A DNA stretch of 22,945 bases from a virus: positions 1-22,945 of the IMG/VR virus record IMGVR_UViG_3300035659_001111; one strand, given 5' to 3'. Below are positions 851 to 22,605 of this stretch, piece by piece. The stretch's first letter is position 1. Every line of letters starts with the position of its first letter. The translations under genes and the position numbers were made by a program. The notes under the pieces were generated by a model. It made no database searches and was not told where the DNA came from. It worked only from the letters and a program-made list of their open reading frames with translations.

Positions 851-853
851 ATG

Positions 854-1256: not shown

Positions 1257-1258
1257 CC

Positions 1259-1471
1259 ATGAAACAATCAACGCGAAAATTGGCGGGAAAGTTGGCTTTT
1301 GCGAGAACGCAGACGCGATTAGCGATGTTCGACATCGGACAGAGAGAACCGCGTCACGGTCCTTCCTTGGTAAGTCGGCGTGTGTTGGCTGAACACCACC
1401 GCAAAAGTCGCAAGCGGATCGGATCGAGCAAGTATCGCGCGATGCTGAAACAGTGGACCCGTTCTTTCTAG
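1259..1471 (+). CDS. Small basic protein with TR-motif N terminus (70 aa)
   Basis: The product begins MKQSTRKL, nearly identical over eight residues to the 522-692 product (MKQNTRKL), and then diverges. About 19 of 70 residues are Lys/Arg and 3 are acidic. GATAGGG lies 11-17 nt before the ATG. The gene ends 10 nt before the protease/scaffold gene, whose GAGGA ribosome binding site lies in that gap. This adjacency to head-assembly genes supports a head-associated role, which is inference. Confidence 0.72.
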   Translation: MKQSTRKLAGKLAFARTQTRLAMFDIGQREPRHGPSLVSRRVLAEHHRKSRKRIGSSKYRAMLKQWTRSF

Positions 1472-1481
1472 CGAGGACACA

Positions 1482-2768: not shown

Positions 2769-2774
2769 TGGATC

Positions 2775-2969
2775 ATGGCAAAGAAGTCCAGCGCACAGAA
2801 ACTTGTCCGCAGTACGAAGTTGGCCGTTGCCAGAACGACCAATCGGACATACGGCCTTGTCGGTGCGCAACGCAAGACTGCCGCAACTGACCTTCGGGCA
2901 TCGAAGGGAAAGAAGCGGAGTGCCAAGAGTTTGGCGCGACATTACCGGAGCGGCCATTGGCCGATCTGA
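2775..2969 (+). CDS. Small basic protein in head module (64 aa)
   Basis: Sixty-four residues with about 17 Lys/Arg and a single acidic residue. It is Ser/Thr/Ala-rich (AKKSSAQKLVRSTKLAVART), reminiscent of histone-tail or protamine-like composition. It sits between the scaffold stop and the terminator at 3047, so it is transcribed with the protease/scaffold. The ribosome binding site is weak, so coupling to the upstream stop 6 nt away is likely. A role binding DNA in the head is inferred. Confidence 0.68.
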   Translation: MAKKSSAQKLVRSTKLAVARTTNRTYGLVGAQRKTAATDLRASKGKKRSAKSLARHYRSGHWPI

Positions 2970-3046
2970 CCGAATAGCGTTTGACAATTTGACCAGCAAC
3001 TAACCGGAAGCCAGGCCAGGCGACTGGATTAGCGGCGAAAACTAGA

Positions 3047-3084
3047 GGCCCATGCGCGGGCGCATCCGTTGCATGGGCCTTTTT
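3047..3084 (+). terminator. Intrinsic terminator before decoration gene
   Basis: A perfect 9-bp stem GGCCCATGC (3047-3055) pairs with GCATGGGCC (3071-3079) around a 15-nt loop and is followed by five T (3080-3084). It closes the protease/scaffold/basic gene group, so the decoration gene needs readthrough, antitermination or its own promoter. I see no convincing promoter in 3085-3149. Confidence 0.85.
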
Positions 3085-3149
3085 GTTTGCGCCCGCTGGT
3101 CAGAACCATAGCCAATCAGGATCACTCCCTCACACGAGAGGAAATCACC

Positions 3150-4994: not shown

Positions 4995-5050
4995 TTTGCA
5001 CAAGAGAGCAACTGAAAAACACAAACGCCGCCCAATAGGGAGCTATTACT

Positions 5051-6313: not shown

Positions 6314-6360
6314 GAGACAAGTAGCTTTCTTCAGTTCGCGGAAGATTGCCTTAATACGGG

Positions 6361-6398
6361 ACGCCGCGACGGGATCGCCTCCCGTTGCGGCGTTTTTT
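6361..6398 (+). terminator. Intrinsic terminator after major capsid gene
   Basis: ACGCCGCGACGGG (6361-6373) pairs over 13 bp, with one G-U, with CCCGTTGCGGCGT (6381-6393) across a 7-nt loop, and runs into TTTTTT (6393-6398). It ends the decoration/capsid unit and would keep capsid mRNA in excess over connector and tail mRNA. The next start codon lies only 17 nt after the T-run. Confidence 0.88.
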
Positions 6399-6414
6399 GT
6401 TAGGAAGTGAAATT

Positions 6415-7002
6415 GTGACAGCAGACTACACCATTGTCGGAACGCCGCTAGGAGAAACGACAGTAACGCCGGTCGGGAGTCCCTTGCCGTCGTATTACAC
6501 CTCGCAGGCGGAAATCGAGCGGATGTGGTCGTTGCGGGCGGCGGCGCTGCATGTGAGCGATTATGATTCGGAAGAGACGGCGCCGGTTGGGGACATTGCC
6601 TTTCGTGCGGCTGTTTGGGACGACATTCTCTGCGCGGCAACCGATGAGGTCAATTTCTACTTGCTGAAGTTTCACGAAGCATCGGACCTGTACAGCAGCC
6701 GGTGGGTGCGGACCAGGGCGACGTGGATCGGCTGCTACTTGCTCAGCCTCCGCCGTGGCGACCCTGGCTATTTCAAGACGCTGTACGATCAGGCGATTGC
6801 CCAACTGGAGCGAATCAACGAAAGCAACACGGTGCCGCGCCTGACGCTGAACCAGAACTTCACGCCGGCCCTGTCGAACATTCGGATTGACGACCGGTTC
6901 CGCGTGGCGAAAGAGCGCGTCGAGCCGACCATCAGTACCGGTGGCACGTCGGGCAGACAGGACTTGGACCCGGACTTGGTAATCGAACCATTCAACTATT
7001 GA
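6415..7002 (+). CDS. Probable head-tail connector/adaptor (195 aa)
   Basis: The GTG at 6415 has AGGAAG about 7 nt upstream. The in-frame start at 6385 lies within the terminator stem and is rejected. After a ~25-residue lead the protein is helical, with an AEIERMWSLRAAALH helix, an acidic stretch and a DDILCAATDEVNFYLLKFH helix, then a WIGCYLLSLRRGDP segment. This pattern (start helix, acidic patch, then a helix rich in aromatic/Leu residues ending in an RRG turn) is common in phage connector (gp6/gp36-like) proteins. Position directly after the capsid gene supports this. No specific family is certain. Confidence 0.5.
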   Translation: MTADYTIVGTPLGETTVTPVGSPLPSYYTSQAEIERMWSLRAAALHVSDYDSEETAPVGDIAFRAAVWDDILCAATDEVNFYLLKFHEASDLYSSRWVRTRATWIGCYLLSLRRGDPGYFKTLYDQAIAQLERINESNTVPRLTLNQNFTPALSNIRIDDRFRVAKERVEPTISTGGTSGRQDLDPDLVIEPFNY

Positions 7003-7017
7003 GGAGACCAGTGGCCG

Positions 7018-8382
7018 ATGGTAACAGACTCAACCTACACGATACTGGTTGGTGCCCCAGGCCCCAACTTCACTTGGGGTTGCGTACAGGGTTTGCTCGC
7101 CCTGACGGATAGCAAGCATACCGTGCAACTGACAAACTCTGGCAACGGGTTCGATGACTTCAACGCCATGTGGGTCACGGCCCTGAACGCATCCGAGGAA
7201 GGCAAGATTACGCATGTGGCGATGTTACACCTGGACATCGCCCCCCTTTGCGGTCGGGAGGACGGCATTTGGTTGGACACCCTGATCGCAGAACTCGACC
7301 GTCTCGATCTGGATTTTGTTTCCGCCATCTCGCCGATGAAGGATGGGAAAGGACTGGTCAGTTCCGGCATTGGCGACCCCAACGATCCCTGGACGCCGTA
7401 CCGACGGATTGCCATACGGGAGTTGTCGAGTTTGCCGGAAACCTTTGACGCCGCCACGTTGGGTTATGCCGGCTGGCCCTTGTTGCACAACTCCGGCTGC
7501 TGGGCGGCTGATCTTCGCAAACCGATTTTCCACCAAACCGATGCAAAGGGCGAATGTCCGATGCACTTCGGCTTTCCCGAAAAGGTGTTTCGCAATCCCG
7601 TTACGGGGAAATGGGAACAGGCGCGGGAATCGGAAGACTGGTTTTTCTCGCGGTGTCTGTTTCAAGTCGGGGCGAAAACGGCTGTCACCCGCAAAGTCAA
7701 ATTGATCCACTGGGGCCGGGCGGGCTACGGAAATTTCGGCACCTGGGGCCAGTTGGAACACGATACGCCGCTGGCTTACAAGTGGGCCGTGCCGCGCGGT
7801 CCCTGGGACGAGATTCAAGGCTGGTTCGACTTCGCCGACATCTATGAAGAGCAAATCGCCCGGGTGAACGGCGAGGCGGCGCACTTCGTTGAGGTAGGCG
7901 CATGGCTGGGCAAGTCCACCGTGTTCATGGCGTCGAAAATTCGCGGCTCCGGCAAGCCGATTGCCTTCGATTGCGTAGACACCTGGAAAGGCGGAACGAA
8001 CGAGCTAGACAACGGCTTGGCAACCGCGGAACGACTGGCGACAAACGGCCGCGATCTGTTTGCGGAGTTTTCCGAGAACGTGAAGGAGTGCGGCGTGGCG
8101 GAGTACATCCGGCCGGTAAGGAGCGATTCGGCAGAGGCGGCAGGTGCGTATCTCGACGGTTCGCTGGATTTCGTTTTCATCGACGCGGATCACTCATACG
8201 AAGGTGTGCGCCGCGACCTGGCGGCCTGGTGGCCGAAGGTGAAACCAACCGGCGTGTTGGCCGGTCACGACTACGACGAGAAGGGAGTGAGGAAAGCGGT
8301 TGACGAGTTTGTCGAGGCGCACCACTTGAAGGTCCAGTCGCGTCACCGCAGTTTCGTTTTGGAAAGGAACAATAAGCCATGA
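7018..8382 (+). CDS. Two-domain glycosyltransferase-methyltransferase
   Basis: Residues ~1-240 look like a GT-A glycosyltransferase: a beta strand at 7-12, a VAMLHLDI segment (67-74) where family 2 enzymes carry their metal-binding Asp motif, and ESEDWFFSRC (204-213) at the position of the family's ED motif. The canonical DXD is not intact (LDIAP), so catalysis is uncertain. Residues ~280-450 form a class I SAM-dependent methyltransferase of the Methyltransf_24 kind: VEVGAWLGKS (291-300, SAM loop), FDCVDTW (317-323), FVFIDADHSYEGV (385-397) and GVLAGHDYD (412-420). Being inside the virion gene block suggests modification of a capsid or tail protein glycan, but a cell-surface target is possible. 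It overlaps the next gene by 4 nt. Confidence 0.68.
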   Translation: MVTDSTYTILVGAPGPNFTWGCVQGLLALTDSKHTVQLTNSGNGFDDFNAMWVTALNASEEGKITHVAMLHLDIAPLCGREDGIWLDTLIAELDRLDLDFVSAISPMKDGKGLVSSGIGDPNDPWTPYRRIAIRELSSLPETFDAATLGYAGWPLLHNSGCWAADLRKPIFHQTDAKGECPMHFGFPEKVFRNPVTGKWEQARESEDWFFSRCLFQVGAKTAVTRKVKLIHWGRAGYGNFGTWGQLEHDTPLAYKWAVPRGPWDEIQGWFDFADIYEEQIARVNGEAAHFVEVGAWLGKSTVFMASKIRGSGKPIAFDCVDTWKGGTNELDNGLATAERLATNGRDLFAEFSENVKECGVAEYIRPVRSDSAEAAGAYLDGSLDFVFIDADHSYEGVRRDLAAWWPKVKPTGVLAGHDYDEKGVRKAVDEFVEAHHLKVQSRHRSFVLERNNKP

Positions 8383-8495
8383 AAACCGTAAGTCGCACTC
8401 GCCGAATCGTGCGTTCAGTTCGTTCCAAGAGGCTAACCCACCGGCAACGGCGGCAAAAGTACATCGGTGGTCCCATGCTGCCGAAGAGCAAATAG
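8379..8495 (+). CDS. Tiny, extremely basic protein (38 aa)
   Basis: Only 38 residues, 14 of them Lys/Arg and none acidic, making it protamine-like. It starts MKTVSRTRR, a variant of the shared N-terminal motif with Ser5-Arg6. Translation is coupled to the upstream gene through ATGA, and GGAAAGGAAC precedes the start. It is too short for most gene finders. It opens the main array of basic genes. Confidence 0.65.
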   Translation: MKTVSRTRRIVRSVRSKRLTHRQRRQKYIGGPMLPKSK

Positions 8496-8497
8496 CC

Positions 8498-8710
8498 ATG
8501 CTACAGAGAACGAAAAAGTTGATGGCAGGACTTCGCTTCGTACGTAGCGCCGGTGCATTGCAGGGGAAGTCGCGGCAAGACATCGCCGCATGGCAAAGGA
8601 AATCAAAGACCCAGATCGGCAGGAAGCGATTGGGTGCTTTGTTGTGGAGACAGGCAAAACCAGGACGGTACAACTTCATGGGAAAGGCGCGCCGTCCAAA
8701 AGGATACTGA
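8498..8710 (+). CDS. Small basic protein with TK-motif N terminus (70 aa)
   Basis: Seventy residues with about 20 Lys/Arg and one acidic residue, beginning MLQRTKKLMAGLRF, the shared motif with Thr5-Lys6 and Leu8. It starts 2 nt after the previous stop with only a weak ribosome binding site, so it is probably reached by reinitiation. The C terminus (MGKARRPKGY) is unstructured-looking and basic. No domain recognised. Confidence 0.7.
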   Translation: MLQRTKKLMAGLRFVRSAGALQGKSRQDIAAWQRKSKTQIGRKRLGALLWRQAKPGRYNFMGKARRPKGY

Positions 8711-8770
8711 CCACAAACGACACTTGAATTGCCGAAACGACTCACCAAAAAACAGTTGTGGGGGTAGAAG

Positions 8771-8977
8771 ATGGCTGCCAGAACCGGCGCGAGAGCGTTT
8801 CGTCAAGCGGCGATTGCCAAGGGGAAGGTATGGCAGATTTACCCTGACCGCAAACCGCGACACATCATGTTCGAGGGCACGAAAACGGCTGCGGGCCGTT
8901 ACCTCAGTGCGAACAGGCTGAACCGAGCGTACAAGAAGGGAACTATTCGGCGGGCACAAGTGATATGGGAGCGATGA
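8771..8977 (+). CDS. Small basic protein (68 aa)
   Basis: Sixty-eight residues, about 17 Lys/Arg and 3 acidic. A strong GGGGGTAGAAG precedes the ATG. The sequence alternates basic helices (ARAFRQAAIAKGK, NRLNRAYKKGTIRR) with a beta-like middle (VWQIYPDRKPRHIMFEG), so it is more likely to fold than the shorter members. A 60-nt gap (8711-8770) with no visible ORF or hairpin precedes it. Confidence 0.72.
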   Translation: MAARTGARAFRQAAIAKGKVWQIYPDRKPRHIMFEGTKTAAGRYLSANRLNRAYKKGTIRRAQVIWER

Positions 8978-8978
8978 A

Positions 8979-9176
8979 ATGAGACAACAAACTAAGCGAC
9001 TAATCGGGCGGCGTCGCACAGGGAAGATAATTAGTGCGGTTCATGGCGCGACGGGTTCAAGAACATTAGCTGTTGTTAGTACACGTTCGCGCATTCTGAG
9101 GGCAGCAGCGGTGCGAAAGATGCGAAAGAACCCAGCGTTTCGACGATTTCTCAAGCAAGACATCCATTCTATGTGA
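8979..9176 (+). CDS. Small basic protein with TK-motif N terminus (65 aa)
   Basis: Sixty-five residues with about 18 Lys/Arg and one Asp. The start MRQQTKRLIGRRR carries the shared motif. The C-terminal part AVRKMRKNPAFRRFLKQ resembles parts of the 138-380 (KMRRDKAAF) and 11523-11663 (KLQAFRNPGF) products, a hint of distant relationship. GGAG sits 6 nt before the ATG, inside the end of the preceding gene. Confidence 0.72.
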   Translation: MRQQTKRLIGRRRTGKIISAVHGATGSRTLAVVSTRSRILRAAAVRKMRKNPAFRRFLKQDIHSM

Positions 9177-9185
9177 GGTGAGATC

Positions 9186-9353
9186 ATGTCCAAGGGCTAT
9201 TTCAAGCGATTCGTTGACGGCGTTTTGGCAGCGAAGTTTGCCCGCAAGCCGGGCAGTTACTATCCCGCGGCACTCGCGGCAAAAGTGTCTCGTGAGAAAG
9301 AAGGCAAGCGGAAGTTTCAAGCAAAGGCCGCCAGAGGCCGCAGAAAGGGATAG
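9186..9353 (+). CDS. Small basic protein (55 aa)
   Basis: Fifty-five residues with about 17 Lys/Arg and 3 acidic. A strong GAGGTGAG ribosome binding site overlaps the previous stop. It begins MSKGYFKRFVDGVLAAKF and ends in a basic helix (KEGKRKFQAKAARGRRKG). It lacks the TR motif. The longer frame in which the next gene lies reads across this gene out of frame and is not real here. Confidence 0.68.
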   Translation: MSKGYFKRFVDGVLAAKFARKPGSYYPAALAAKVSREKEGKRKFQAKAARGRRKG

Positions 9354-9357
9354 AACC

Positions 9358-9546
9358 ATGAAAAAGTCTACCAAGGCGCTCATTAAAGGTTTGCAACGAT
9401 ACCACAATCGGCAATTTCTCAACGGTCCTAACACAATGAAGCGCGGGGCACCGGGCGGTTTCCGGGGAAGCGTGGCGTCGATGTTGAAACAGACTCGCAA
9501 GAACGCAAGTCGAAAAGCCGTCAGCAAATACATGAAGAAAAATTAG
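9358..9546 (+). CDS. Small basic protein with TK-motif N terminus (62 aa)
   Basis: Sixty-two residues with about 17 Lys/Arg and no Asp or Glu. It begins MKKSTKALIKGL, the shared motif, has a Gly/Asn-rich middle (NGPNTMKRGAPGGFRG) and a basic C-terminal helix. AGGGAT precedes ATG 9358. It stops at an amber codon (9544-9546), after which the same frame stays open for another 50 codons. Confidence 0.7.
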   Translation: MKKSTKALIKGLQRYHNRQFLNGPNTMKRGAPGGFRGSVASMLKQTRKNASRKAVSKYMKKN

Positions 9547-9558
9547 CAAAGGCCGTCG

Positions 9559-9699
9559 CTGGCAATCAGCGCGTCCGAAAGGCTGTTCCAGGCGCGCTTG
9601 GAGTTGGCTAACAAATTGCCGCGCGGCCGCGCTTTTCGGAAGTCTGTCGCCGCCGGAGTCAAGCGTGTACGCCGGATCAAACCGGGGAGCATCTTGTAA
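9559..9699 (+). CDS. Candidate basic ORF with no ATG/GTG start (46 aa)
   Basis: After the amber stop of the preceding gene the same frame runs to TAA 9697-9699 and encodes LAISASERLFQARLE and then ANKLPRGRAFRKSV and VKRVRRIK, about 12 Lys/Arg. It has the character of its neighbours, fills a 152-nt gap, and its stop overlaps an ATG at 9699. No ATG or GTG exists. CTG 9559 is 6 nt from AAAGG, TTG 9598 is another option, and amber readthrough from the gene at 9358 is a third. A start lost by mutation is also possible. Confidence 0.35.
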   Translation: MAISASERLFQARLELANKLPRGRAFRKSVAAGVKRVRRIKPGSIL

Positions 9700-9740
9700 T
9701 GCACGAATCAACCGCAACTTCTAGTGTGAAAGGTAGTACG

Positions 9741-9914
9741 ATGGCAACACTCCGCAAATATGCCAAGGCAGGTTACTCTACGGCTGCTCCGTTTGTGCGA
9801 ATGAGCGCCGGTGCCGCCCGGAAGGAATTATCCGCTTCGCGGGGTATGCCGCGCCGTCGATGGTTGAGACTCTGGGAAACCGCACATGCGAAGGTTTACA
9901 CGAGGAAACACTGA
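9741..9914 (+). CDS. Small basic protein (57 aa)
   Basis: Fifty-seven residues, about 14 Lys/Arg and 2 Glu, with an Arg cluster (MPRRRWLRLWE). Two starts compete: ATG 9741 with AAAGG at 7 nt, and ATG 9699 with GGGGAG at 9 nt, which would add a 14-residue Ser/Thr-rich lead. I chose 9741 because the product then opens like its neighbours with a basic helix (MATLRKYAKAG). Function unknown. Confidence 0.65.
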   Translation: MATLRKYAKAGYSTAAPFVRMSAGAARKELSASRGMPRRRWLRLWETAHAKVYTRKH

Positions 9915-9921
9915 ACCGCCA

Positions 9922-10131
9922 ATGCGAACACGAACACGCGAGTTGCGAGCCGGACTGAACCAGTTGCGCATACGAATGGCGCATTCCTATGGTGTGCCAT
10001 TGGAACGGCGTGGGAGTGTTTCTGGCCGTACTCTACGACAATCGCTTGCTACCAGTTATCGAGAAGGTCGGCTTAATCGTGCCGGTGCCAAGCGAGAGCG
10101 TGCTTACATTCGGAACGCGGGGCTGAACTGA
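9922..10131 (+). CDS. Small Arg-rich protein with TR-motif N terminus (69 aa)
   Basis: Sixty-nine residues, about 16 Arg but one Lys, and 4 Glu. It begins MRTRTRELRAGLNQLR, the shared motif in an Arg form. Start ATG 9922 is chosen over the in-frame ATG 9886, which would overlap the upstream gene by 29 nt. Its TGA overlaps the start of the virion morphogenesis gene (TGATG at 10129-10133). Confidence 0.7.
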   Translation: MRTRTRELRAGLNQLRIRMAHSYGVPLERRGSVSGRTLRQSLATSYREGRLNRAGAKRERAYIRNAGLN

Positions 10132-10883
10132 TGAACCGCCTGACCAAGAACATTCCGATGCCCGCCACTCGCCGCGATGCCGTGGGCGAGTTGAGGATGC
10201 TGCCGCGCTATATCACGGGCACCATGCCCGACATTCACGGCTGGGGCCGCCGGTTCAAGATGTTCTTCGCCTTTCATTTATTGGAGAAGATACACGATGC
10301 TTTCCTTACGAAGTCCGATGGTGGCACTGATGAGACAGGGCTGCGGTGGAAACCACTCAAGCGCGAGACCATCGCGCAACGGCCGCTCGGACCGGGAGAA
10401 GCAACGAAGTTCGGAATCCGGGGACTCGGTCGCAGTGGTCGGGGACTGCTCACTATGTCCCAGAACCGCCGGTGGAAGGGAATCTTTTACTCCACGTTCA
10501 AGCGGCTCTTGCTGAAGGTTGGGGAGGCGCAGGCTAAAGTGTTGGCCGCCAAGTTGGCATGGGCCATTCTGAAGTCCGAGGGGGCCAAGACGAAGCTGGA
10601 CGTGCTTGGGGACCGCAAGGTGCCGATCCTCCAGGTGAGTCACCGGCTGATTAAGAGCCTGACGCCCGGCAGTCTGTCGGACGATTCCTACTCGCCGCCG
10701 GAAGAGCAGATATTTGAGAGCCATTGGGGATCGGTCACGATTGGCTCGAAGGTGCCCTATGCGGCCAAGCAGCACAAAACAAGACCCTTGTGGCCGTCGC
10801 TGGCGGCGCAGGGTCGGGCAGGCTGGACAACTCAATCGGCGAAGTGGGCAATGCAACAACTAACCTCAGTAGTAAAGGCGTGA
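10131..10883 (+). CDS. Phage virion morphogenesis / tail completion protein (Mu gpG-like)
   Basis: The 250-residue product has the family layout: an N-terminal helix region, a G-L-R-W-K-P-L segment (about 68-74) matching the G..W..L motif, a central basic helical part, then a LIKSLTPGSLSDD segment followed by SVTIGSKVPYAAKQHKT, which matches the common 'vGs..pYA..H..G' ending. Such proteins act at the head-tail joining or tail completion step. It splits the basic gene array in two, so those genes are co-transcribed with joining genes. The start overlaps the previous stop. Confidence 0.7.
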   Translation: MNRLTKNIPMPATRRDAVGELRMLPRYITGTMPDIHGWGRRFKMFFAFHLLEKIHDAFLTKSDGGTDETGLRWKPLKRETIAQRPLGPGEATKFGIRGLGRSGRGLLTMSQNRRWKGIFYSTFKRLLLKVGEAQAKVLAAKLAWAILKSEGAKTKLDVLGDRKVPILQVSHRLIKSLTPGSLSDDSYSPPEEQIFESHWGSVTIGSKVPYAAKQHKTRPLWPSLAAQGRAGWTTQSAKWAMQQLTSVVKA

Positions 10884-10886
10884 AGC

Positions 10887-11105
10887 ATGTTTGTCCGAGT
10901 GGGTTCGCATCGCGCACGAGACAAGATGATTTCAGCCTTGGGACGCAAGCCGCAAGAGTATCACTACCCCATAACCGATAGAAGGTCTACTGAATTGGTG
11001 CGGGTGCGACGGACTGAACTTGGAAAACTCAGGGGCATAACGGGCATATCGCACGCCAAGAGAGTGAGAATCAGAGACGTGAGAAAATCGTGGAGCATGA
11101 TGTGA
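10887..11105 (+). CDS. Small basic protein (72 aa)
   Basis: Seventy-two residues, about 19 Lys/Arg and 6 acidic, the least one-sided of the array. It contains a likely folded middle (RKPQEYHYPITDRRSTELVRVRR cut into short helix and strand segments by eye) and a basic end (AKRVRIRDVRKSW). It begins 3 nt after the preceding stop, and AAGG is 12 nt upstream. Unrecognised. Confidence 0.65.
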   Translation: MFVRVGSHRARDKMISALGRKPQEYHYPITDRRSTELVRVRRTELGKLRGITGISHAKRVRIRDVRKSWSMM

Positions 11106-11284
11106 ACATAAAACGGTCGGGAACTATTCGGCTTGGCCGTTTGACCTTTTCACGCCATCAGGTTGCTCGCGCTGCCGGTGACGACGCTGGCAACGCTTCG
11201 ATGCGCCATACCGGTCGAAAGAAATGGAGTCGCGCCGACTACAACAGGGCCGTGCGAGAGTACAACCGAGTCAACCCAAGGTGA
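11102..11284 (+). CDS. Small basic protein, GTG start (60 aa)
   Basis: I chose GTG 11102, which overlaps the upstream stop (GTGA) and has GGAG at about 7 nt; an in-frame GTG at 11090 is possible. The product has about 15 Lys/Arg and 4 acidic residues. GTIRLGRLTFSRHQ looks like a short beta hairpin, and the C terminus (RADYNRAVREYNRVNPR) like an amphipathic helix. This could be a small folded DNA-binding unit, but no family is recognised. Confidence 0.6.
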   Translation: MNIKRSGTIRLGRLTFSRHQVARAAGDDAGNASMRHTGRKKWSRADYNRAVREYNRVNPR

Positions 11285-11288
11285 AACC

Positions 11289-11498
11289 ATGAGAAGAGTA
11301 ACAAGAGCGCACAAAATAGTTGAGGCGGTTCGCGTCCACGTTCGGGCCTTTACGCCTGTTGGTTTTGCCGCGCGTAAAACGACAGCGAACCGAAAAGCTA
11401 GGCGAGAACTCGCAACAAGTATCCGAAAGGTAAGAGCAAAGTCGCATCTGCGTGGCGTAGCAAAACAGTTAGTTCATGGTTACGTCAAGCATTACTAG
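11289..11498 (+). CDS. Small basic protein with TR-like N terminus (69 aa)
   Basis: Sixty-nine residues with about 19 Lys/Arg and 2 Glu. It starts MRRVTRAHKIVEAV, with Thr5-Arg6 as in the shared motif. AAGGTG precedes the ATG, 4 nt after the previous stop. The C-terminal half is one long basic helix by eye (NRKARRELATSIRKVRAK). Confidence 0.7.
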   Translation: MRRVTRAHKIVEAVRVHVRAFTPVGFAARKTTANRKARRELATSIRKVRAKSHLRGVAKQLVHGYVKHY

Positions 11499-13272: not shown

Positions 13273-14496
13273 ATGTCTGAGGAACTCAGGGTAAACTTCG
13301 CCGGAGAGGTATCGGAGAAGGTTGGGCCGGAACTGACCCAATCCCTCGACAGGCTTGCCAGTTCGCTCGATAGCCTCACGTCAAAAGGCGCAGGGCTGCC
13401 ACCTGGGGCCTCTGTGGCTCCAATAGCAGGCCATGAGGCCCAATGGTGGAATGTTACACCAGAAGGCCAAGCCACACGGGAACGAGAACTAGAACGCATT
13501 AGGACCGCAACCTACGGCCTTGCCCCTACGGCTCATCCAATGGGGCCGGGTTTCCGCATGGTCGGGGCAAGCGAGCGGAAGAGCCTTGCCGAGATACTAG
13601 CCGAGCAAGCCGGAACCGCCAATCTCAGGCCGGGAGAAATCCCGCTGGAAGGCCCAATCCCCCGGCCACCTCATCTACCACCGCCCTTGCCGGGACCGCC
13701 GCCGACTTGGGGCCAGCGCATGGCCCAAAACATCGGTCAACAGGGGGCTGGATTAGCCGGTTCAGCCGTTGGCGGAATCGTAGGCGCGGCAACTGGTTCT
13801 CCAACGCTTGGTGCATTGGCCGGCGTAGGAACACAGTTGGCTATTTCGGCGGCAATGGCGGGCCACCCAGAACTTGGCTTGTTTATGATAGCCGCAAGCG
13901 CTCTTACCGAAACCTTCCACAAGTTGGATAGTGTCGTGAAGGGGGCGGCTGAGAACTTGGCGGAGTACGATGCCCGCGTGGCCCGGGCCTACGCCCAAAG
14001 GGAAGTGGCGATGATCCGCGAACGGTTAGCGGAGCGGGGAAGGATCGGCGGGTTGGCGGCTGAATACGTCGGCCAGCAAACCCGGATCGACGTGGAGTGG
14101 GAACGGATGAAGACGGAATTGGTCAAAGGGGTCGGCGGTCCAGTTATGGAGATCAAGGAACTGCTGTTGACCGCGCTGTCGGGCTGGCGGCAATTGTTGG
14201 AATTACTGAATGATGCAAAGGCTGGCGTGGACAAGTTGCCTGATGGCTTAGTCAACGGCATCTTGGCAAGCGTTTCACCGCAAACACTATTAGGAAAATT
14301 GATTTGGGATGCTGTCGCCTATCTTCGTGACATCGCCAAGAACACAAAGAAGGATGAGATTTTAGGACCTACGCCAAGCGAATGGCTCGATGATCTAATG
14401 AAGAGTCTTGGACCAATGACGGGGGATCATGTCGGGGCTGCATTTAAGCAACGGACGCATCCGAGAAGCCCCGCTAGACTACAGGTGTTTGGATAA
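13273..14496 (+). CDS. Probable tape-measure protein, short (407 aa)
   Basis: It directly follows the tube gene by 15 nt. It has a predicted N-terminal coiled coil (GPELTQSLDRLASSLDSL), a Pro-rich linker (residues about 123-145), a Gly/Ala-rich hydrophobic region (about 157-212) as in many tape-measure proteins, then long charged helices (YAQREVAMIRERLAERGR). The C terminus is basic. At 407 residues it would specify a short tail, if the usual length relation holds. GAGGGG precedes ATG 13273. No frameshift-chaperone ORFs intervene, unlike the usual order. Confidence 0.55.
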   Translation: MSEELRVNFAGEVSEKVGPELTQSLDRLASSLDSLTSKGAGLPPGASVAPIAGHEAQWWNVTPEGQATRERELERIRTATYGLAPTAHPMGPGFRMVGASERKSLAEILAEQAGTANLRPGEIPLEGPIPRPPHLPPPLPGPPPTWGQRMAQNIGQQGAGLAGSAVGGIVGAATGSPTLGALAGVGTQLAISAAMAGHPELGLFMIAASALTETFHKLDSVVKGAAENLAEYDARVARAYAQREVAMIRERLAERGRIGGLAAEYVGQQTRIDVEWERMKTELVKGVGGPVMEIKELLLTALSGWRQLLELLNDAKAGVDKLPDGLVNGILASVSPQTLLGKLIWDAVAYLRDIAKNTKKDEILGPTPSEWLDDLMKSLGPMTGDHVGAAFKQRTHPRSPARLQVFG

Positions 14497-16235
14497 TGAG
14501 TCGAGGACCGAGTTTAGGCACTGTTTCGTACAACGGCTGGGAGTTTCCCGGCCCGGTCGTAGTCAAGTTGCGCTGTACGCCGGTTCGTGACTTCGCCGGG
14601 CGCACGACGAAATACTACCACTACAGCATCAACTTCACCACCACAATCGTCCCAACAGACCTGGACTCGTATGCGACAACTAACGATCCCTTTCTCGGCA
14701 GTCTGCGCGCCACGCTGATGCAGCCGGGCAAGTTGTTGACCGTAACCGGTCACGGCCTTGGGGGCGACATTTCTTTAGATTGCACGAGTTGCATCGGATT
14801 TGGCCCGATCCCGACCGACTATCAATTTGAGGTTATCGGCGCGAATCTTGCCGGCCGGTTAGTGTGGAGTTGCGAGTTCGATGCGCCGCATTGTTGGGCC
14901 TATGGTATTTCTCCCCCGCAAAATCAGATCGGCGACCTGTCGTTTGCACTCAACTACAGCATCGACGAATCGGGGTTGACCACCAGAACGATTACAGGCC
15001 AAGCGGAAGTCGCCGTGTTCCTCACCCAGGACTTGCAACATATCACGGCAACGGCGGACTTGCTTATCGACATCATCAATCCGATTTTGCCGGAAGGATT
15101 CATGCGCCGGAAGTCTTACACGATAAGCCCGGATAAGCGGTTCCTCAATTTCGTCGTTACGGACCGGGAGTTGGGAACGTCTAACGTCTATCCCGATCAG
15201 ATCGTCCATGCCGATCTCGATTTTGACATACGCGGAGATACAACGAAGGATGCATTTTGGGACTGTGAACTCGGCGGAACGCTGGAAGTAGCCCAGGGAT
15301 ACGCCAAGGGGTTTGCACTTGAGGCAGTATTGCAGATTGCCAAGCAGCGCATCGACGGCATACAGAAAAGCATCCGCCAGCAGGACAACAACAAGAAGAA
15401 GGGAGCGGTAGTTCTGACTACGTTTCATTTGTCGGATTCCCTCTTCTCGCCAAGAATGCGCGTATCTCTTGCGTGGCGCGTTACAGGCCCAACTCTAAAG
15501 TATCTGCTTGCCAACAGCGGTCTATGGGAACCAGTCGGGGTGAGTTGGGACAAGTGGCAGAAATCCGATGGGATCAAGGCGAGCGTCCTTGCTCCTCGCG
15601 GCTATGCGAACCTGTCGTCACAGGCCACCGATGATATTGTAGTGTCGTTTTGCCAACCCGGCGCGCCATACTCCGGTCCAAAACAACAGGGACCGCTCAA
15701 GCCATACTCAAGCAGCATCACACATACCAATTACAACTCCGACAACAGTTGGATCAAGTACGACTTGAACCTGTCCTATAGCAAGGAGTCGGCGACGATT
15801 CTACACCGGGCAGCAACATCGGCTAAGGATTCGCAGACACCGCTGGCCCCAACGAACACAGGACTCGGTGGCAGAGTGACGGGTGGCGTCGTCGATAAGG
15901 GAACGTATGCCGCCGGAGTCGGCAACAAACCGACGCTGGTATTGCAGGAACGCGCCAACGCCGAAGGCGTGTTGATCTTAACGGGGCACGCGATCCGCGT
16001 TGGCTATCCCATTGAGGGCGGCGACTTGGCCGCTATCGACCAAGGCGCGCATGAGGAAAACGTGTTTATCGACGGTCCGAAGCGGATCGGCTTCACTCCC
16101 GAACGCATCTCGATCTACGAGGTGAAATGGAAGCGAATCTACCGGCAGATCGTGGATGGTCCGTGGGAACCGAAGGTCAAGCAGGGCACAGTGCCGACCT
16201 CACAAGTGGACTGGTTGACCTATGCACCAAGTTAA
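14496..16235 (+). CDS. Large tail protein, likely distal tail/baseplate (579 aa)
   Basis: The gene overlaps the tape-measure stop (TAATG), so it is coupled. The protein is beta-rich: a GTVSYNGWEFPGP start, many alternating hydrophobic strands, two Cys pairs in the first third, a helix around residues 275-300 (LEAVLQIAKQRIDGIQKSI) and a region of Trp-rich strands (GVSWDKWQ, WKRIY). Order after the tape measure implies a distal-tail or tip component. No known domain recognised. The C-terminal part (GHAIRVGYPIEGGDL) looks like another compact beta domain. Confidence 0.5.
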   Translation: MSRGPSLGTVSYNGWEFPGPVVVKLRCTPVRDFAGRTTKYYHYSINFTTTIVPTDLDSYATTNDPFLGSLRATLMQPGKLLTVTGHGLGGDISLDCTSCIGFGPIPTDYQFEVIGANLAGRLVWSCEFDAPHCWAYGISPPQNQIGDLSFALNYSIDESGLTTRTITGQAEVAVFLTQDLQHITATADLLIDIINPILPEGFMRRKSYTISPDKRFLNFVVTDRELGTSNVYPDQIVHADLDFDIRGDTTKDAFWDCELGGTLEVAQGYAKGFALEAVLQIAKQRIDGIQKSIRQQDNNKKKGAVVLTTFHLSDSLFSPRMRVSLAWRVTGPTLKYLLANSGLWEPVGVSWDKWQKSDGIKASVLAPRGYANLSSQATDDIVVSFCQPGAPYSGPKQQGPLKPYSSSITHTNYNSDNSWIKYDLNLSYSKESATILHRAATSAKDSQTPLAPTNTGLGGRVTGGVVDKGTYAAGVGNKPTLVLQERANAEGVLILTGHAIRVGYPIEGGDLAAIDQGAHEENVFIDGPKRIGFTPERISIYEVKWKRIYRQIVDGPWEPKVKQGTVPTSQVDWLTYAPS

Positions 16236-16269: not shown

Positions 16270-16914
16270 CTACGGCTGGCCTTCTGTGGGAATGGAGGAT
16301 ATGAGTTCGTCCAGTTTTTTTTCGGGAGAATCACCCCGCCGACGTTGTTCCCATTGTTCAACTTCTCCCGGCTTTCCCATCATAACATGATGCGTCAGCA
16401 TGTAACCCTTCACAACATCATGTTGGTCCAACACAAACACGTTGTCATTTTCATTGGTGCGTCCGAAACCTTCGTCGGATGTAAACTCGACTCGAAGGCC
16501 CCGACACTTGGCCGGTTCAATTCCTCTCGTATCAACGTCCTGAAATCCAGGGAACGCCCAATATCTTACACCATCGTCATGTTTTCCCCACGAGAAAGGA
16601 ACCCAACGAAGCCCCTCAATCCCAACGTAAACGAACGCATCGGCGAGCGATTCCACCGGATGTGTAGAGTGAATGGTATACTGGCGCTCATGCTTGTCCA
16701 GATATGCCCGCACGGCACTTTCGGAAGCCGACTGTCTCGACGGCGGTGTGGTCTGAGCCATGAAGACACCAACCAGCAACAGAACGATCAAGAGCGTGCC
16801 GCCAAGGCCCGCTGCAATGTACAGGCCGACGCGAGATCGCTTCTTCCGGCCCTTGATGGTTGCGCCAGCGAGCGGTTGGCAAAACGGCACCGGCGGTGGA
16901 CAGGTGTTCGGCAT
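16270..16914 (-). CDS. Single-TM membrane-anchored protein, likely cargo gene (214 aa)
   Basis: It reads against the structural operon. The start at 16914 is chosen because AGGGGATTGCC precedes it; the longer frame has no such site. It has a Pro-rich head, a KGRKKRSR positive stretch (21-28), one TM segment (about 30-53, GLYIAAGLGGTLLIVLLLVGVFM), then a ~160-residue extracytoplasmic domain with an N-terminal charged helix (SESAVRAYLDKHERQ) and Trp/Tyr-rich strands. The positive-inside rule places the C-terminal domain outside. Its strand and position suggest a cargo ('moron') gene, perhaps expressed in a lysogen for envelope modification or exclusion. No family recognised. Confidence 0.62.
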   Translation of the reverse strand: MPNTCPPPVPFCQPLAGATIKGRKKRSRVGLYIAAGLGGTLLIVLLLVGVFMAQTTPPSRQSASESAVRAYLDKHERQYTIHSTHPVESLADAFVYVGIEGLRWVPFSWGKHDDGVRYWAFPGFQDVDTRGIEPAKCRGLRVEFTSDEGFGRTNENDNVFVLDQHDVVKGYMLTHHVMMGKPGEVEQWEQRRRGDSPEKKLDELISSIPTEGQP

Positions 16915-17013
16915 GGCAATCCCCTTTCCGAGACAGAATGGGCGACACAACCAGCATACACAGTTTCCATAGAGTAGGCAATACCCCAGAAACGGGGGAT
17001 AGGAGAAGAGAAA

Positions 17014-17475
17014 ATGACTGGATACCCAGGGTGTGACCATCAGGAAGAGGCGACTTTTGCCGACTTAGTTGGCCAACTCGTCAGCGTGTTCATTGCGGGT
17101 ATTGTGTGGTTAGTGTGCGTTTACTTCATGGTTCACTGGCTACTTGCGCCTCCCGGTTTCCTTCAGGCCCTTGGTTGTCAGCCGATAATTCTGAACGTGC
17201 GGGTGGTAACTGACACAGGGAGCGATGAACCCCAACCGAGCCAGTTTCTCGACGCTGGCAACCAGGTCCGCAAAGCCCGCGGCGTCACGACCCTCCGACA
17301 GAAACCGGTTGCCGACCATCACGTACATCCGCTGGTCGCCCACCCCGACCTCAATCAGGCCAGTGCCAGCGCTAGCAACGTCAAGGATGAGTCTGTCGTC
17401 GTCGGTAAGTCTGTCGCGCCACCGCTGGAGAAGCATCCCTACCAGCCGGGGAATGAACCCCAAAAACCGCAATAG
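17014..17475 (+). CDS. Short membrane ORF, plus strand, overlapping antisense gene
   Basis: The ATG has an excellent TAGGAGAAGAGAAA lead. The first ~45 residues contain a strong TM segment (LVGQLVSVFIAGIVWLVCVYFMVHWLLA). From base 17140 on, however, the frame is fully antisense to the 17140-17484 minus gene, and the residues lack hydrophobic pattern and look like a shadow. Either the two genes genuinely overlap tail to tail, or this is a truncated gene whose stop has been lost. The TM start is real-looking; the rest is doubtful. Confidence 0.4.
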   Translation: MTGYPGCDHQEEATFADLVGQLVSVFIAGIVWLVCVYFMVHWLLAPPGFLQALGCQPIILNVRVVTDTGSDEPQPSQFLDAGNQVRKARGVTTLRQKPVADHHVHPLVAHPDLNQASASASNVKDESVVVGKSVAPPLEKHPYQPGNEPQKPQ

Positions 17476-17484
17476 GTATTCCAT
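17140..17484 (-). CDS. Small protein with amphipathic N terminus and winged-helix-like C terminus (114 aa)
   Basis: GGAGGTGTGCGCGG lies just upstream of ATG 17484 on the minus strand, a strong site. Residues 1-30 are hydrophobic/Arg-mixed (YLLRFLGFIPRLVGMLLQRW). After a beta-containing middle comes ADLVASVEKLARLGFIAP and later NYRLTTKGLKE, the helix-wing pattern of a winged-helix domain. This resembles the layout of SieB-type superinfection exclusion proteins, but the two TM segments of that family are not seen, so this is only a suggestion. Isolated gene on the opposite strand to the virion genes: probable cargo. Confidence 0.6.
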   Translation of the reverse strand: MEYLLRFLGFIPRLVGMLLQRWRDRLTDDDRLILDVASAGTGLIEVGVGDQRMYVMVGNRFLSEGRDAAGFADLVASVEKLARLGFIAPCVSYHPHVQNYRLTTKGLKETGRRK

Positions 17485-17607: not shown

Positions 17608-17997
17608 ATGAGCGTGACCCCAGAGCAAGCCCTTGTGGGCAAAGAGATTCCGAAAGGTCCGGTCGCTATCCCCGACTGGAAACTGAACGTGACGGTCGGC
17701 GATCCGCCGCAAGCGTTCACCATTGACGTGTGCGAGTGGGAGTCGGCGAACAGCCTTTTCCCGCCCGATGAAGTCCAGGGCGTCGGCACGCCGAACTGGT
17801 TCGCCTTCTGGAAGAAGCGCCAGGAGTGGGCCAAGCAAACCTACGGAATCGAGTTGTCCGTTTCGCAGGTCTACCAGATTTTCCAGTACGTGCGGGTGTA
17901 CTGGAACACGATGAAACCTTTTTTCGACAGAGACTTAGGGTTGGCTTTTGGTATCATGCCGACCCCTGGCGACTCGGAGAGTGGCAAGTCCGCCTGA
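17608..17997 (+). CDS. Upstream product of frameshift pair, probable tail assembly chaperone (129 aa)
   Basis: The 129-residue protein has an F-T-I-D-V strand, a helical middle (NWFAFWKKRQEWAKQTYG) and the segment IELSVSQVYQIFQYVRVYWN before the slippery site. That layout (small target-like strand, then 'w...~~g..ls..~a~~i~~~v') is seen in G-like tail assembly chaperones. TAAGGAGCG lies 10 nt before ATG. In zero frame it ends shortly after the slippery T-run with a Gly/Pro/Ser tail (PTPGDSESGKSA). It precedes the portal gene, an unusual place for a chaperone, so the identity remains tentative. Confidence 0.5.
   Translation: MSVTPEQALVGKEIPKGPVAIPDWKLNVTVGDPPQAFTIDVCEWESANSLFPPDEVQGVGTPNWFAFWKKRQEWAKQTYGIELSVSQVYQIFQYVRVYWNTMKPFFDRDLGLAFGIMPTPGDSESGKSA
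17919..17967 (+). promoter_or_regulatory. -1 ribosomal frameshift site: slippery heptamer plus stem-loop
   Basis: In the upstream gene's frame the codons read CCT TTT TTC, so T TTT TTC (17919-17925) is an in-phase X XXY YYZ heptamer. Eleven nt later AGGGTTGGC (17937-17945) pairs with GCCGACCCCT (17958-17967), 9 bp with one bulged C and one G-U, around a 12-nt loop. A slip by -1 at the heptamer enters the open frame that leads, without a stop, into the 62-residue downstream ORF. Confidence 0.6.
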
Positions 17998-18185
17998 TGG
18001 CCGAAGAGTTGCCGGACCTCTTGAAGGAGGCCCGGCAGCGACAAGCCTACGGACAAACCAAACTGAGTCCCAGCGACATGCGGGACTTGATCCTGCACGA
18101 TACCGGAAACAAGGAACTGGCCGAGCAGATCGAAAAGGAACTCTTGATGCAGGAGGCCGCGAAGATCGGTCAGCCAACAGGATAG
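17997..18185 (+). CDS. Downstream half of frameshift pair (62 aa alone, or C terminus of fusion)
   Basis: An ATG at 17997 overlaps the upstream stop (TGATG) and encodes 62 residues, ELPDLLKEARQRQAYG and then a helical acidic/basic C terminus. But the same frame is open upstream from the slippery site, and the extra residues (FWYHADPWRLGEWQVRLM) look coding, with a natural helix continuing into the 62-residue part. I therefore prefer the -1 fusion product of about 193 residues, the GT form of the pair, with the short form as an alternative by reinitiation. Confidence 0.5.
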   Translation: MAEELPDLLKEARQRQAYGQTKLSPSDMRDLILHDTGNKELAEQIEKELLMQEAAKIGQPTG

Positions 18186-18197: not shown

Positions 18198-19655
18198 ATG
18201 GAAACCGCCGAACATCTACTTGGCGAAGCCGTCACCCAAGACTACGTGCCCTCGATGTACTGGGGGCGCTACTATACGCTCCGCAAGGCCCCGCCGTTTA
18301 GCCTCTCCGTTGCGCTGGAGATGCTGACCGATCCGCGCATTACCCTGGGCATGTGGCTTATCAAAGGGCCGATCCTTTCCAAAACCCGGTTCTACGTGGA
18401 CTGCGACAATCAGGATGTCAAGGAGTTTCTCAAGACGCAAATCACCCGCTTCTGGCGGATGTCGAGCGTGAAGGCCATGAAGGCGGTTGAGTGGGGTTAC
18501 GGTTGCTCGGAAGCGCTCTACAGGTATCAGAACGGTCTGATTCACTTCGACACGCTCAAAGATTTGCACTCGTTAGACTGCCGCGCCGTGACGCAATATG
18601 GAAAACTGATCGGGGCGACGGTGAGGAACGTCCCCAACCAACCGGGCAAACGCAAAGTAACCATCGAAGGCGCCCGTTGTCTCTGGACGGTCCATGCCCG
18701 CGAAGTCCACCAGTGGTACGGCCAGAGCCGGCTCTTTGGCGCGTATCTGCCGTGGCTGGAGTTATGGACGGAAGGCGGCGTGCGCGACACGCGCAGATTG
18801 TACTTTCACAAGTATGCCTTCACGGGGCCGATTGGTTATCATCCTACGGCCGGCGTGACGCTCGCCGATGGCAAGGAAGTATCCAACCGCGATTTCATGC
18901 GCGAAATGCTGGAGAAGTTCAAGACCGGCGCGATAATGACCTTCCCTAACACGCTTAACGCACAGACTGGAAAGTACGCCTGGGATGTTATCCCGCCGGT
19001 CGTCAATCCGCCGCCCGAGCAGATCATGGAGTACATCCGCGACCTGCGCACGGAACTTCTCGAAGGGTTGGGAATCCCGCCGGAAGTGATCGAGTCGATT
19101 GGCGGAACTTCCGGCTGGTCGGGTAAGGCGATCCCGATGGAGGCGTTCTACAGTATCTTGCAGGACATCGTAAATTGGATCAGTCACGATTTACAACGAC
19201 AGATTCTCCGGCCGCTGGTGGACATCAACTTTGGCCCGGACATCGACTTTCAGATAGTTCCTTTCGGCCTGTCGTTTGCGCCGAGCACACCGTCAGATCA
19301 GGCGAACCAGGCGGAGCGCGTACAGGGGCAAACACCATCAGGTGAACAATACAGTCTCTACGGCGAGGATGCCGTAGCAGATCAGCCGCCACGGGGATAC
19401 CGGGCGAAACACGAGAGTCAATATGTGCCCGTTGCCTTCGCGCACGATGTCTCAAGCGAAGCCCGCGTAGCAAAGGGAAGCAGCAAGGGCGGGGCCAATC
19501 CGAAGGTGAAGCCAGCAGAACCGGGCAAACTCAAATCTGCGAAGCCCCAGGCGAAATCACAGAAAGTCAGCAAGTCGAAAGCTAAACGCGCGAGTATTGA
19601 GACGCTGGAGTTCAAGAACCCCGACATCACCATGAGCCTGACAGAAGAGGAATGA
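18198..19655 (+). CDS. Portal protein (Mu gp29-like, DUF935 type)
   Basis: The 485-residue product matches the general portal pattern: an early LSVALEMLTDPRITLGMWLIKG segment (family's 'eml.~D~~i.~~l..rk'), AVEWGYGCSEALYRY (typical 'a..wG.s..Ei.y'), YGQSRLFGAYLPWLELWTEGG, a KTGAIMTFPN strand, and a C-terminal ring-helix segment (GIPPEVIESIGG, then IVNWISHDLQRQILRP). The last ~110 residues are a Lys/Ala/Pro-rich tail. It forms the dodecameric DNA gate of the head. Its place after the tail genes is out of the usual order. AGGA lies 11 nt before ATG. Confidence 0.68.
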   Translation: METAEHLLGEAVTQDYVPSMYWGRYYTLRKAPPFSLSVALEMLTDPRITLGMWLIKGPILSKTRFYVDCDNQDVKEFLKTQITRFWRMSSVKAMKAVEWGYGCSEALYRYQNGLIHFDTLKDLHSLDCRAVTQYGKLIGATVRNVPNQPGKRKVTIEGARCLWTVHAREVHQWYGQSRLFGAYLPWLELWTEGGVRDTRRLYFHKYAFTGPIGYHPTAGVTLADGKEVSNRDFMREMLEKFKTGAIMTFPNTLNAQTGKYAWDVIPPVVNPPPEQIMEYIRDLRTELLEGLGIPPEVIESIGGTSGWSGKAIPMEAFYSILQDIVNWISHDLQRQILRPLVDINFGPDIDFQIVPFGLSFAPSTPSDQANQAERVQGQTPSGEQYSLYGEDAVADQPPRGYRAKHESQYVPVAFAHDVSSEARVAKGSSKGGANPKVKPAEPGKLKSAKPQAKSQKVSKSKAKRASIETLEFKNPDITMSLTEEE

Positions 19656-20224: not shown

Positions 20225-21646
20225 ATGGCCGGCGAGTACGCAACCTCCAGTGTCACCTTCGGTGACCTGCCCTGTTTCGTTCCGCTGATGCTCTACAAAG
20301 AGGCGGAACGGTTGGACCTGCCCGTCGGAACATGGTGGGGGAAGGCCAACAGTTTCCGTTGCGTTCGCGGCCGGGAACCGGGGCGCGGCTGGCTGCTGAT
20401 GCTCCGACGCGATCTGACCGACGACGCCATTCAGACGCTCCAGAGTTCGCCGCAACAACTGGTATTCACGCACGGCGATTCCAGCGTGACGCTCAAAGGG
20501 CTCTACTTCGTCCAGGCGACGGCGATCTTTGCCGACGACGCCACGGAGACTTCCGACAATACGATGTTCCTGGTGGAACTTGCCGACCCAAGGATTCATC
20601 TGCGGAGTTCGATCTTTGACGGCGAGGTTTCAGATGGGGGCGATGCCTTTGACACCTGGATCGACCTGATTCAATTCCTCTGGGGAAAACTGCCGACGAC
20701 TGCCGGCAGCGCACCGAGTCTTCCAGATGGCGTGACGATAACCGCAACCCCGGAGGTCTTCACGCTTGCCGGCAGCAACGTGTGGGACACGATTTGCGGT
20801 TTGCTGACCCCGCTCGGCCTGGATGTGTTCTACAATCCGATCACGACGGCCTTCGAGTTGATCGACATGGCCAGCGAGCAGGACATCAGCAACCTATCAG
20901 AGGACGAGAACCTTCCCCGCCTCGATGCTTCCACCAACCACAAGGAAGGCGCGGCAAACTTCCCTGAGAAGATACGGGTGTACTTTCCGAAAGGCAAACT
21001 CTGGTTTACGTCGGGGCAGGATCAGATACTTGTCTCTGCGCCGTGGGGCGGGGGTGATTACTACAAGGACATCGCCACTGTGTTGACTGGCGCGGTGTCG
21101 GGTTCGCTAACGGTTCTCTGTTATCCGATTGGCGCGAACTCCTCGCTCAGTCACAACGATCTCGACGACATCGCCGATGAAGTCGCCGGAAACTACACGT
21201 CGCGCTTGATGTACGCCGTCAACTGCGGATTCCGGCGGTATCGTGCGCCGTTGTATCCGCCGTATTGCGGGAGCCAAATAGCAGAGGTGCGATTCTTCGA
21301 TTACGGCTGGGGCATGTTCACGGAGTTCTACGGCCAGCAGACGACGGAGCGTGAATATCGGGGGCCGATCAAGTTCTTGCCAGTGCCAGCCGGCTCTATA
21401 ATTGCTTGGGCAACCACTACAGCCGCTGTGGCGAAAACCGATGCGACATTCGATGTGAAATTGGTCGTGCCGTTCGACGGGTCTACTTGGATCGGGGACG
21501 GTGCAGGCGGCAACGAACCCTATCTTACCGTGTCGAACGACCCGGACGTTGGCACGGCAGACAGCGGGGCACGGGGCAAGATTATCTCGACCGTTGAGGA
21601 TGGCGTTGTCGTTTGGCATTATCTGGACTTCCCGTGTCCCACTTGA
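20225..21646 (+). CDS. Probable tail hub/baseplate protein (473 aa)
   Basis: Good AGGGGTGATAATCA lead. The protein is beta-rich with an early VPLMLYKEAERLDLP segment, a VFTHGDSSVTLKGLYFVQA beta stretch, a central VWDTICGLLTPLGLDVFYNPITTAFELID segment typical of hub domains ('~~il~~la~~~g~~~~~d~~g~~~l'), and a C-terminal Gly/Trp-rich beta domain (TWIGDGAGGNEP, VVWHYLDFP). This fits a tail hub or other baseplate part. The match is at pattern level and the family is not certain. Confidence 0.45.
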   Translation: MAGEYATSSVTFGDLPCFVPLMLYKEAERLDLPVGTWWGKANSFRCVRGREPGRGWLLMLRRDLTDDAIQTLQSSPQQLVFTHGDSSVTLKGLYFVQATAIFADDATETSDNTMFLVELADPRIHLRSSIFDGEVSDGGDAFDTWIDLIQFLWGKLPTTAGSAPSLPDGVTITATPEVFTLAGSNVWDTICGLLTPLGLDVFYNPITTAFELIDMASEQDISNLSEDENLPRLDASTNHKEGAANFPEKIRVYFPKGKLWFTSGQDQILVSAPWGGGDYYKDIATVLTGAVSGSLTVLCYPIGANSSLSHNDLDDIADEVAGNYTSRLMYAVNCGFRRYRAPLYPPYCGSQIAEVRFFDYGWGMFTEFYGQQTTEREYRGPIKFLPVPAGSIIAWATTTAAVAKTDATFDVKLVVPFDGSTWIGDGAGGNEPYLTVSNDPDVGTADSGARGKIISTVEDGVVVWHYLDFPCPT

Positions 21647-22605
21647 AAACACCCGCTGAACGATTGATCTTCCCGCACCTGTGGTTGCCGATGTTGCGGT
21701 TTCGACAGGGGAGGTGCTGTTGCGAAGAGGGATGCAAAGTGGTCAACTGCGACGGTGTAGGGCCGTCGTGTCTTGCCATTACTTTTTGGGGCATCACGCC
21801 CGCAGAGTTCGCTTGCGGCTGCATGAATCGCGTGTTTTACTTGGCGTGCGTTGACGATGGCGACGACACGCGATGGGAGCAAACCTGGGGTCTGATATAC
21901 GATCACGGAGATTTGGGATTAGTATTACAGAACACTACGGTTCTTCTTACGGTTGAGATTGTTTTGGTCGGCGACGACTATATCTTGCGTTGTACAAAAA
22001 GAGCAACAGCCGGACTGGCTTTCAGGATCACGGTGGTATGGGAACTATCGCTGGGAGAGACAAAACCCGATTGCAAAAGTTTCGATTCGGCCGAACTTGC
22101 GTTTGTCAGCTATGATCTTGTTGGCGGTGGTGCGTTGTGCGTCTACGAAGATTCTACGGTGACGATCACGGCGGTAGATGGACATGACTGCCCGGCAGAA
22201 GAATGTCATACGCCCTATTGTGAAGATTGCGAGGAAGTCGAATCGTACACGGTAAACATTGCCGGCGTTGTACCGTTGGACCCCGCGGACTGCGCCAGTT
22301 GCGTCGCCGATTACAATGGAACATGGGTCGTTGACCGGGAAGAACCGTGCGGGGTCGTGTATAGTTGCCCAATAATAACGGATTGTGACGGAACGGAATT
22401 GCAGTTAGAGATCAGCTCATCGGGGACAGGGCACCACACCTTTATGACTCTCAAGATTGTAAATGGTATGACTTATATGGTGGCGACTGCAACCACGCAC
22501 AAATGTCTTGTAGACGACGATACGCCGATGGCCGTAGACCCATCGAGCGCCAACGGAGTCTGCGATTTTTTGGGCGCGACCGTCACGATTTCGGCCAATC
22601 CATGA
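21643..22605 (+). CDS. Cys-rich protein with two tandem beta domains (about 320 aa)
   Basis: The stop at 22605 is secure, the start is not. TTG 21643 overlaps the upstream stop; GTG 21634 and ATG 21691 are alternatives. After a Cys cluster (CCCEEGC) come two related domains, about residues 42-190 and 223-320. Each opens with a short strand and G (ITFWGI, VNIAGV), then a C-x-C or C-x-x-C, then an N-containing strand (MNRVFYL, YNGTWVV). The pattern is known to me from Planctomycetota proteins, but no name can be given. Location after a hub-like gene suggests a tip, receptor-binding or adhesion part. Zinc or disulphide cross-links may stabilise it. Confidence 0.5.
   Translation: MKTPAERLIFPHLWLPMLRFRQGRCCCEEGCKVVNCDGVGPSCLAITFWGITPAEFACGCMNRVFYLACVDDGDDTRWEQTWGLIYDHGDLGLVLQNTTVLLTVEIVLVGDDYILRCTKRATAGLAFRITVVWELSLGETKPDCKSFDSAELAFVSYDLVGGGALCVYEDSTVTITAVDGHDCPAEECHTPYCEDCEEVESYTVNIAGVVPLDPADCASCVADYNGTWVVDREEPCGVVYSCPIITDCDGTELQLEISSSGTGHHTFMTLKIVNGMTYMVATATTHKCLVDDDTPMAVDPSSANGVCDFLGATVTISANP

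Follow-up and report, generated by a model that had tools for sequence, protein, structure and literature searches.

The locus at positions 17608-18185 of this stretch of DNA (the window, a 22,945-bp IMG/VR virus record) raises the question of whether a small gene lying directly upstream of a phage portal gene specifies one protein or two and, if two, how the second is made. Programmed -1 ribosomal frameshifting at 17919-17925 is the probable answer, with a probability of roughly 0.72 as judged from sequence comparison. This reading, proposed in a first-pass annotation, is now supported mainly by syntenic relatives that carry the heptamer A AAA AAG and a selected -1 ORF. The features on which the argument turns are these:

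14496-16235, + strand: g14496, a large upstream gene, tail-like by inference, conserved beside the frameshift gene (tblastn E 2e-35 to relative L293 and 1e-32 to relative L294)
17608-17997, + strand: zero-frame ORF of 129 aa, the predicted abundant gpG-like product, whose homologue is L293 11900-12229
17919-17925, + strand: in-phase candidate slippery heptamer T TTT TTC (codons TTT TTC), no more than about 3 aligned residues from the A AAA AAG of the relatives
17925-18185, + strand: -1 frame ORF entered after slippage, 86 codons plus stop, a putative T-like domain
17938-17945 / 17958-17965, + strand: 8-bp stem-loop, a weak candidate stimulator (z -1.1 to -1.6)
17997-18185, + strand: 62-codon ORF, which might be translated by coupled reinitiation instead of, or alongside, frameshifting
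18198-19655, + strand: portal protein of the Mu gp29 / DUF935 type (PF06074, E 3.5e-13), the syntenic anchor

The 129-aa ORF is preceded by a good SD sequence (UAAGGAGC, -7.1 kcal/mol, 7 nt 5' of its ATG) and has an in-frame codon usage score of +0.475. The ATG of the 62-codon ORF (17997) shares a base with the TGA stop of the 129-aa ORF (17995-17997), giving TGATG at 17995-17999, and its SD is weak and distant (-3.1 kcal/mol at 12 nt). The -1 frame contains a TGA at 17769-17771, is then open from 17772 to 18182, and stops at 18183-18185; it therefore does run open into the 62-codon ORF, as had been claimed. A slip at 17919-17925 would join 106 residues to 86 to give a fusion of 192; the first product had been correctly sized at 129 aa, and the second, put at about 193, is one residue shorter.

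The heptamer itself is present and in phase with ORF 17608-17997; no other strict X XXY YYZ heptamer occurs in the 74 codons over which this ORF overlaps the open -1 frame. Strict in-phase heptamers as a class are not rare (21 per 5276 codons); those with six identical bases number 3 per 5276 codons, and at that rate about 0.04 would be expected by chance across the overlap and about 0.004 in the 5 codons flanking the homologous slip site on each side. The T TTT TTC heptamer is thus mildly unlikely to have arisen by chance. (The window has another homopolymeric heptamer in phase, T TTT TTG at 22566-22572, near the end of ORF 21646-22605, and the -1 frame that follows it is open to 22910 and encodes a Cys-rich protein; there an ATGA overlap at 22602 is a simpler explanation than slippage.)

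Two further supports offered by the first-pass annotation were not confirmed. A hairpin does exist downstream of the heptamer, with a stem of 8 bp rather than 9, a 12-nt loop and a spacer of 12 nt rather than 11. Its folding energy is ordinary and not beyond chance (z = -1.09, -1.64 and -1.34 for three stretches, in which between 15 and 32 of 200 shuffles fold equally well), and no counterpart is found in L293 or L294; a role as stimulator is not supported. The -1 frame between the slip site and the ATG had also been described as coding-like; the zero frame has the better codon usage score there (+0.21, against -0.18 for the -1 frame). For comparison, genuine coding windows of equal length have a median score of 0.34, with the 1st percentile at -0.21. 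When codon usage was used to locate a single frame-switch point, the end of the zero frame was preferred and 17925 was not supported. The window taken alone is ambiguous, given this zero-frame preference in codon usage past the heptamer; such usage is nevertheless compatible with frameshifting, since most ribosomes would remain in the zero frame.

Insight therefore has to come from other genomes. A degenerate protease-motif pattern (REVS...DG.G..W) retrieved two relatives, L293 (IMG/VR 3300036768_000459) and L294 (3300044941_000120), which are 78% identical to one another and encode a protease and head proteins related to those of the window; their portals share about 30% identity with that of the window (E ~1e-39). 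All three genomes have the order protease, head protein, g6406, tube-like gene, g14496, frameshift gene, portal, g20225. In the window only, the reverse-strand ORFs 16270-17040 and 17140-17484 separate g14496 from the frameshift gene; because these two genes abut in both relatives, 16270-17484 looks like an insertion. The portal ORF of L293 (12463-16803) has 1446 aa, and that of L294 has 1347 codons; the portal is of Mu type, extended by a long additional part at its C-terminus. At the far end of the 41.6-kb contig L293/L297/L299, an ORF that runs past the contig end is read, from its translation, as the large terminase, which would place the portal apart from the terminase in this phage group.

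Other searches returned little. Patterns of 8 aa detected no direct homologue of the window fusion in IMG/VR, and no relatives of it were found among GenBank phages or GTDB contigs; among 392 planctomycete genomes the matches proved on inspection to be at chance level. A viral scan with the fusion of the relatives as query gave only the L293 and L294 records again, and a generic portal motif search gave 119 contigs with no close relative among them. No near-identical copy of the frameshift region was found from which selection in the window's own lineage could be gauged. Patterns from the portal and head protein retrieved only L003, a 6.7-kb contig 99.9% identical to the window (7 substitutions in 6680 bp, no indel) in which the frameshift gene is not included. 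L003 has an in-frame stop in the head protein gene (L003 4965-4971, window 5379-5380), where two adjacent changes convert TGG to TAA, and another in the small gene at 1259 (L003 929-931, window 1340). Portal and g14496 searches of planctomycetes gave remote Mu-type prophages only, or nothing; because such remote prophages, with related portal, protease and head genes, are found in planctomycete genomes, a planctomycete host is plausible for this virus.

Directly 5' of the portal, both L293 and L294 have a homologous small gene with an in-phase A AAA AAG. The zero-frame ORF stops soon after the heptamer, at the same place in both, and the -1 frame runs on for about 85 codons, which would give fusions of 182 and 181 aa. 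The arrangement is thus conserved in both relatives, in-phase heptamer and open -1 frame alike, with a heptamer that differs from that of the window. In the 34 codons that follow the slip, the two relatives differ in the -1 frame by 13 synonymous and 10 non-synonymous codon changes; the same stretch read in the zero frame has 1 synonymous and 20 non-synonymous changes (Fisher p 0.0003 between frames), and a non-synonymous count as low as 10 was reached in 0 of 5000 neutral simulations. From the slip point on, purifying selection acts on the -1 ORF of the relatives. A TAA interrupts the -1 frame of L294 9 nt 5' of the heptamer, and from there up to codon 40 past the heptamer the frame lacks ATG, GTG and TTG, so that the conserved -1 segment could hardly be reached without a change of frame; rare start codons such as ATC aside, frameshifting in L294 appears close to required. 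Downstream folds are ordinary in the relatives too (z -0.64 and +0.18). Both, however, have a strong SD-like sequence, UGGGAGGG (-10.7 kcal/mol), 9 nt 5' of the heptamer, and in L293 genes just 0.11% of the codon positions have an SD of this strength; known bacterial -1 sites have an SD spaced similarly 5' of the heptamer. The window lacks a strong SD stimulator, its upstream sequence reaching only -3.3 kcal/mol.

Comparison of the products connects the window to this arrangement. The window fusion aligns with those of the relatives at 29% identity over 128 columns that span the slip site (hhalign E 0.01), and its C-terminal 86 aa are more similar to them than shuffled sequences are (p 0.003-0.005). 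By hhalign the 86-aa -1 product gives E 0.0048 and the 62 aa that follow the ATG give E 0.018; that is, the 24 residues before the ATG improve the match of the -1 frame. Tested alone, the 24-aa segment is not significant, and the zero-frame tail matches about equally. Frame switches placed at 17952, 17976 and 17994 score about as well as one at the heptamer, so homology does not fix the slip site, and it is the heptamer, together with its homologous position, that would carry the assignment of the site in the window.

Several other mechanisms could produce such a pair of frames. One is translational coupling, in which ribosomes terminate at TGA 17995-17997 and restart at ATG 17997 to make proteins of 129 and 62 aa and no fusion. 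The TGATG overlap invites this reading, as do the zero-frame preference in codon usage right up to the stop and the resemblance of the 62-aa part alone to the relatives; against it, the relatives have no such overlap, L294 offers no usual start codon before its conserved -1 segment, ATG 17997 has a poor SD, and a strong heptamer at the homologous place would have to be put down to chance (~0.004). Coupling is accordingly regarded as unlikely, although worth keeping in mind. Alternatively, the two frames might be a single continuous gene broken by a 1-base deletion, be it a genuine inactivating mutation or an error of assembly or sequencing (T6 called instead of T7, or an indel farther along, near 17960). 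One extra base in the T run would indeed join the frames, and both frames in 17926-17994 somewhat resemble the relatives. Such a break is very improbable given that the frame changes at an A6 heptamer in each of two independent relatives (78% identical), whose zero frames end together; L003, while not covering the gene, also has 7 substitutions and no indel relative to the window in 6.7 kb. Least probable is programmed slippage of RNA polymerase, rather than of the ribosome, on the T6 run (A6 in the relatives), for which there is little chance: a homopolymer of six is present in the window, L293 and L294, but the seventh base preserves a tandem-slippage heptamer in all three, the SD of the relatives is placed as for ribosomal frameshifting, and a run of six is on the short side for slippage by RNA polymerase.

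With ribosomal frameshifting as the preferred reading, one gene would specify two products. Most ribosomes would reach the stop at 17997 and release the 129-aa protein, while a minority would slip at the heptamer, where the tRNA-Phe molecules of the P and A sites would re-pair with UUU UUU, and would then read on to 18185 to yield the 192-aa fusion with its added, predicted helical domain. As in lambda gpG/gpGT, the two forms probably constitute a tail assembly chaperone pair that has to be produced at a set ratio; we infer the slipping of the window's own site, the efficiency of the slip and the chaperone role.

Given frameshifting, a tail assembly chaperone is the likeliest role and, by analogy, a probable one. 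The lambda-type assignment made in the first-pass annotation is plausible on architecture and neighbourhood, but no sequence or fold match was found and the place of the gene beside the portal is unusual; the gene is accordingly likened to G/GT and not filed as a member. No Pfam, PHROG or NCBIfam match, PF06223 included, was obtained for the products of the window or the relatives, and fold searches, run with models whose pLDDT was 63 and 73, returned no significant match, an absence not taken as evidence. The putative tape measure genes (window 13273, L293 8687; no family match) lie 5' of the frameshift gene with at least one gene between. A different possibility is a real frameshift in a gene that belongs functionally to the head-tail connector or portal module, not to the tail. 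Its position directly 5' of the portal in all three genomes, with no chaperone family or fold match, is what such a role would lead one to expect; yet the upstream neighbours look like tail genes, and paired products of this kind in tailed phages are, as generally known, nearly always tail assembly chaperones (PMC5009743, PMC10885494). A connector or portal role thus seems doubtful, though not negligible. Somewhat less probable still is its more specific form, an undescribed family of frameshift-regulated portal/connector assembly proteins whose slip signal would alternate among relatives between A AAA AAG plus SD and T TTT TTC.

Comparison with known systems places the putative chaperone pair in context. 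In the gpG/gpGT plan, one gene among the phage structural genes has two products, the longer bearing a C-terminal domain added by a -1 slip (PMC5009743; PRFect, PMC10885494). The window gene resembles gpG/gpGT and its tailed-phage relatives (PMC5009743; Xu et al. 2004) in its short N-terminal product and predicted low-abundance -1 fusion, in the heptamer near the end of the first ORF, in the small C-terminal domain and in its place in a phage structural-gene operon. Unlike lambda, it has no detectable sequence or fold match, and it lies beside a Mu-type portal rather than between recognisable tube and tape measure genes. The relatives share with the -1 signal of E. coli dnaX both the heptamer A AAA AAG and an SD-like sequence some 9-10 nt 5' of it; the window differs from dnaX in its T TTT TTC, its ordinary hairpin and its lack of a strong upstream SD, and the genes are unrelated. 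Bacillus phage Eoghan, which has a related portal, carries two small genes (gp22/gp23) where a chaperone pair would be expected; the first ends in an A-rich run, and gp23 has by eye a similar Y/F-x-x-x-P-x-x-L motif. In contrast to the window pair, gp22/gp23 are placed before the tape measure gene, and hhalign gave no alignment with gp23.

Other genes of the window also deserve mention. At least 12 very small, very basic ORFs (50-85 aa) are scattered among the structural genes on the + strand of 138-11498 and look like tandem paralogues; several begin M-K-x-S/T-T-R/K-K/R-L, examples of the set being those at 689, 1259, 2775, 8498, 8979, 9699 and 11285. Within the structural gene cluster, 7018-8382 encodes a C-terminal methyltransferase domain (PF13578, 1.4e-23) and a glycosyltransferase-like N-terminal part. 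The 621-aa product of 3129-4994, possibly a decorated head protein, combines a decoration domain like that of lambda gpD (PF02924, 1.4e-6, narrowly below the cut-off) with a long stretch after it that looks repetitive.

If programmed -1 frameshifting is correct, it would add a previously undescribed protein family to the phage genes expressed by frameshifting. The frameshift would have been kept while heptamer and stimulator changed, making the gene pair recognisable in a phage group without database annotation. Were the portal or connector reading true instead of the chaperone one, a -1 frameshift would set a protein ratio in head-neck assembly. Finally, the fixed place of the gene beside the portal may call into question how strict the usual gene order of tail chaperones is.
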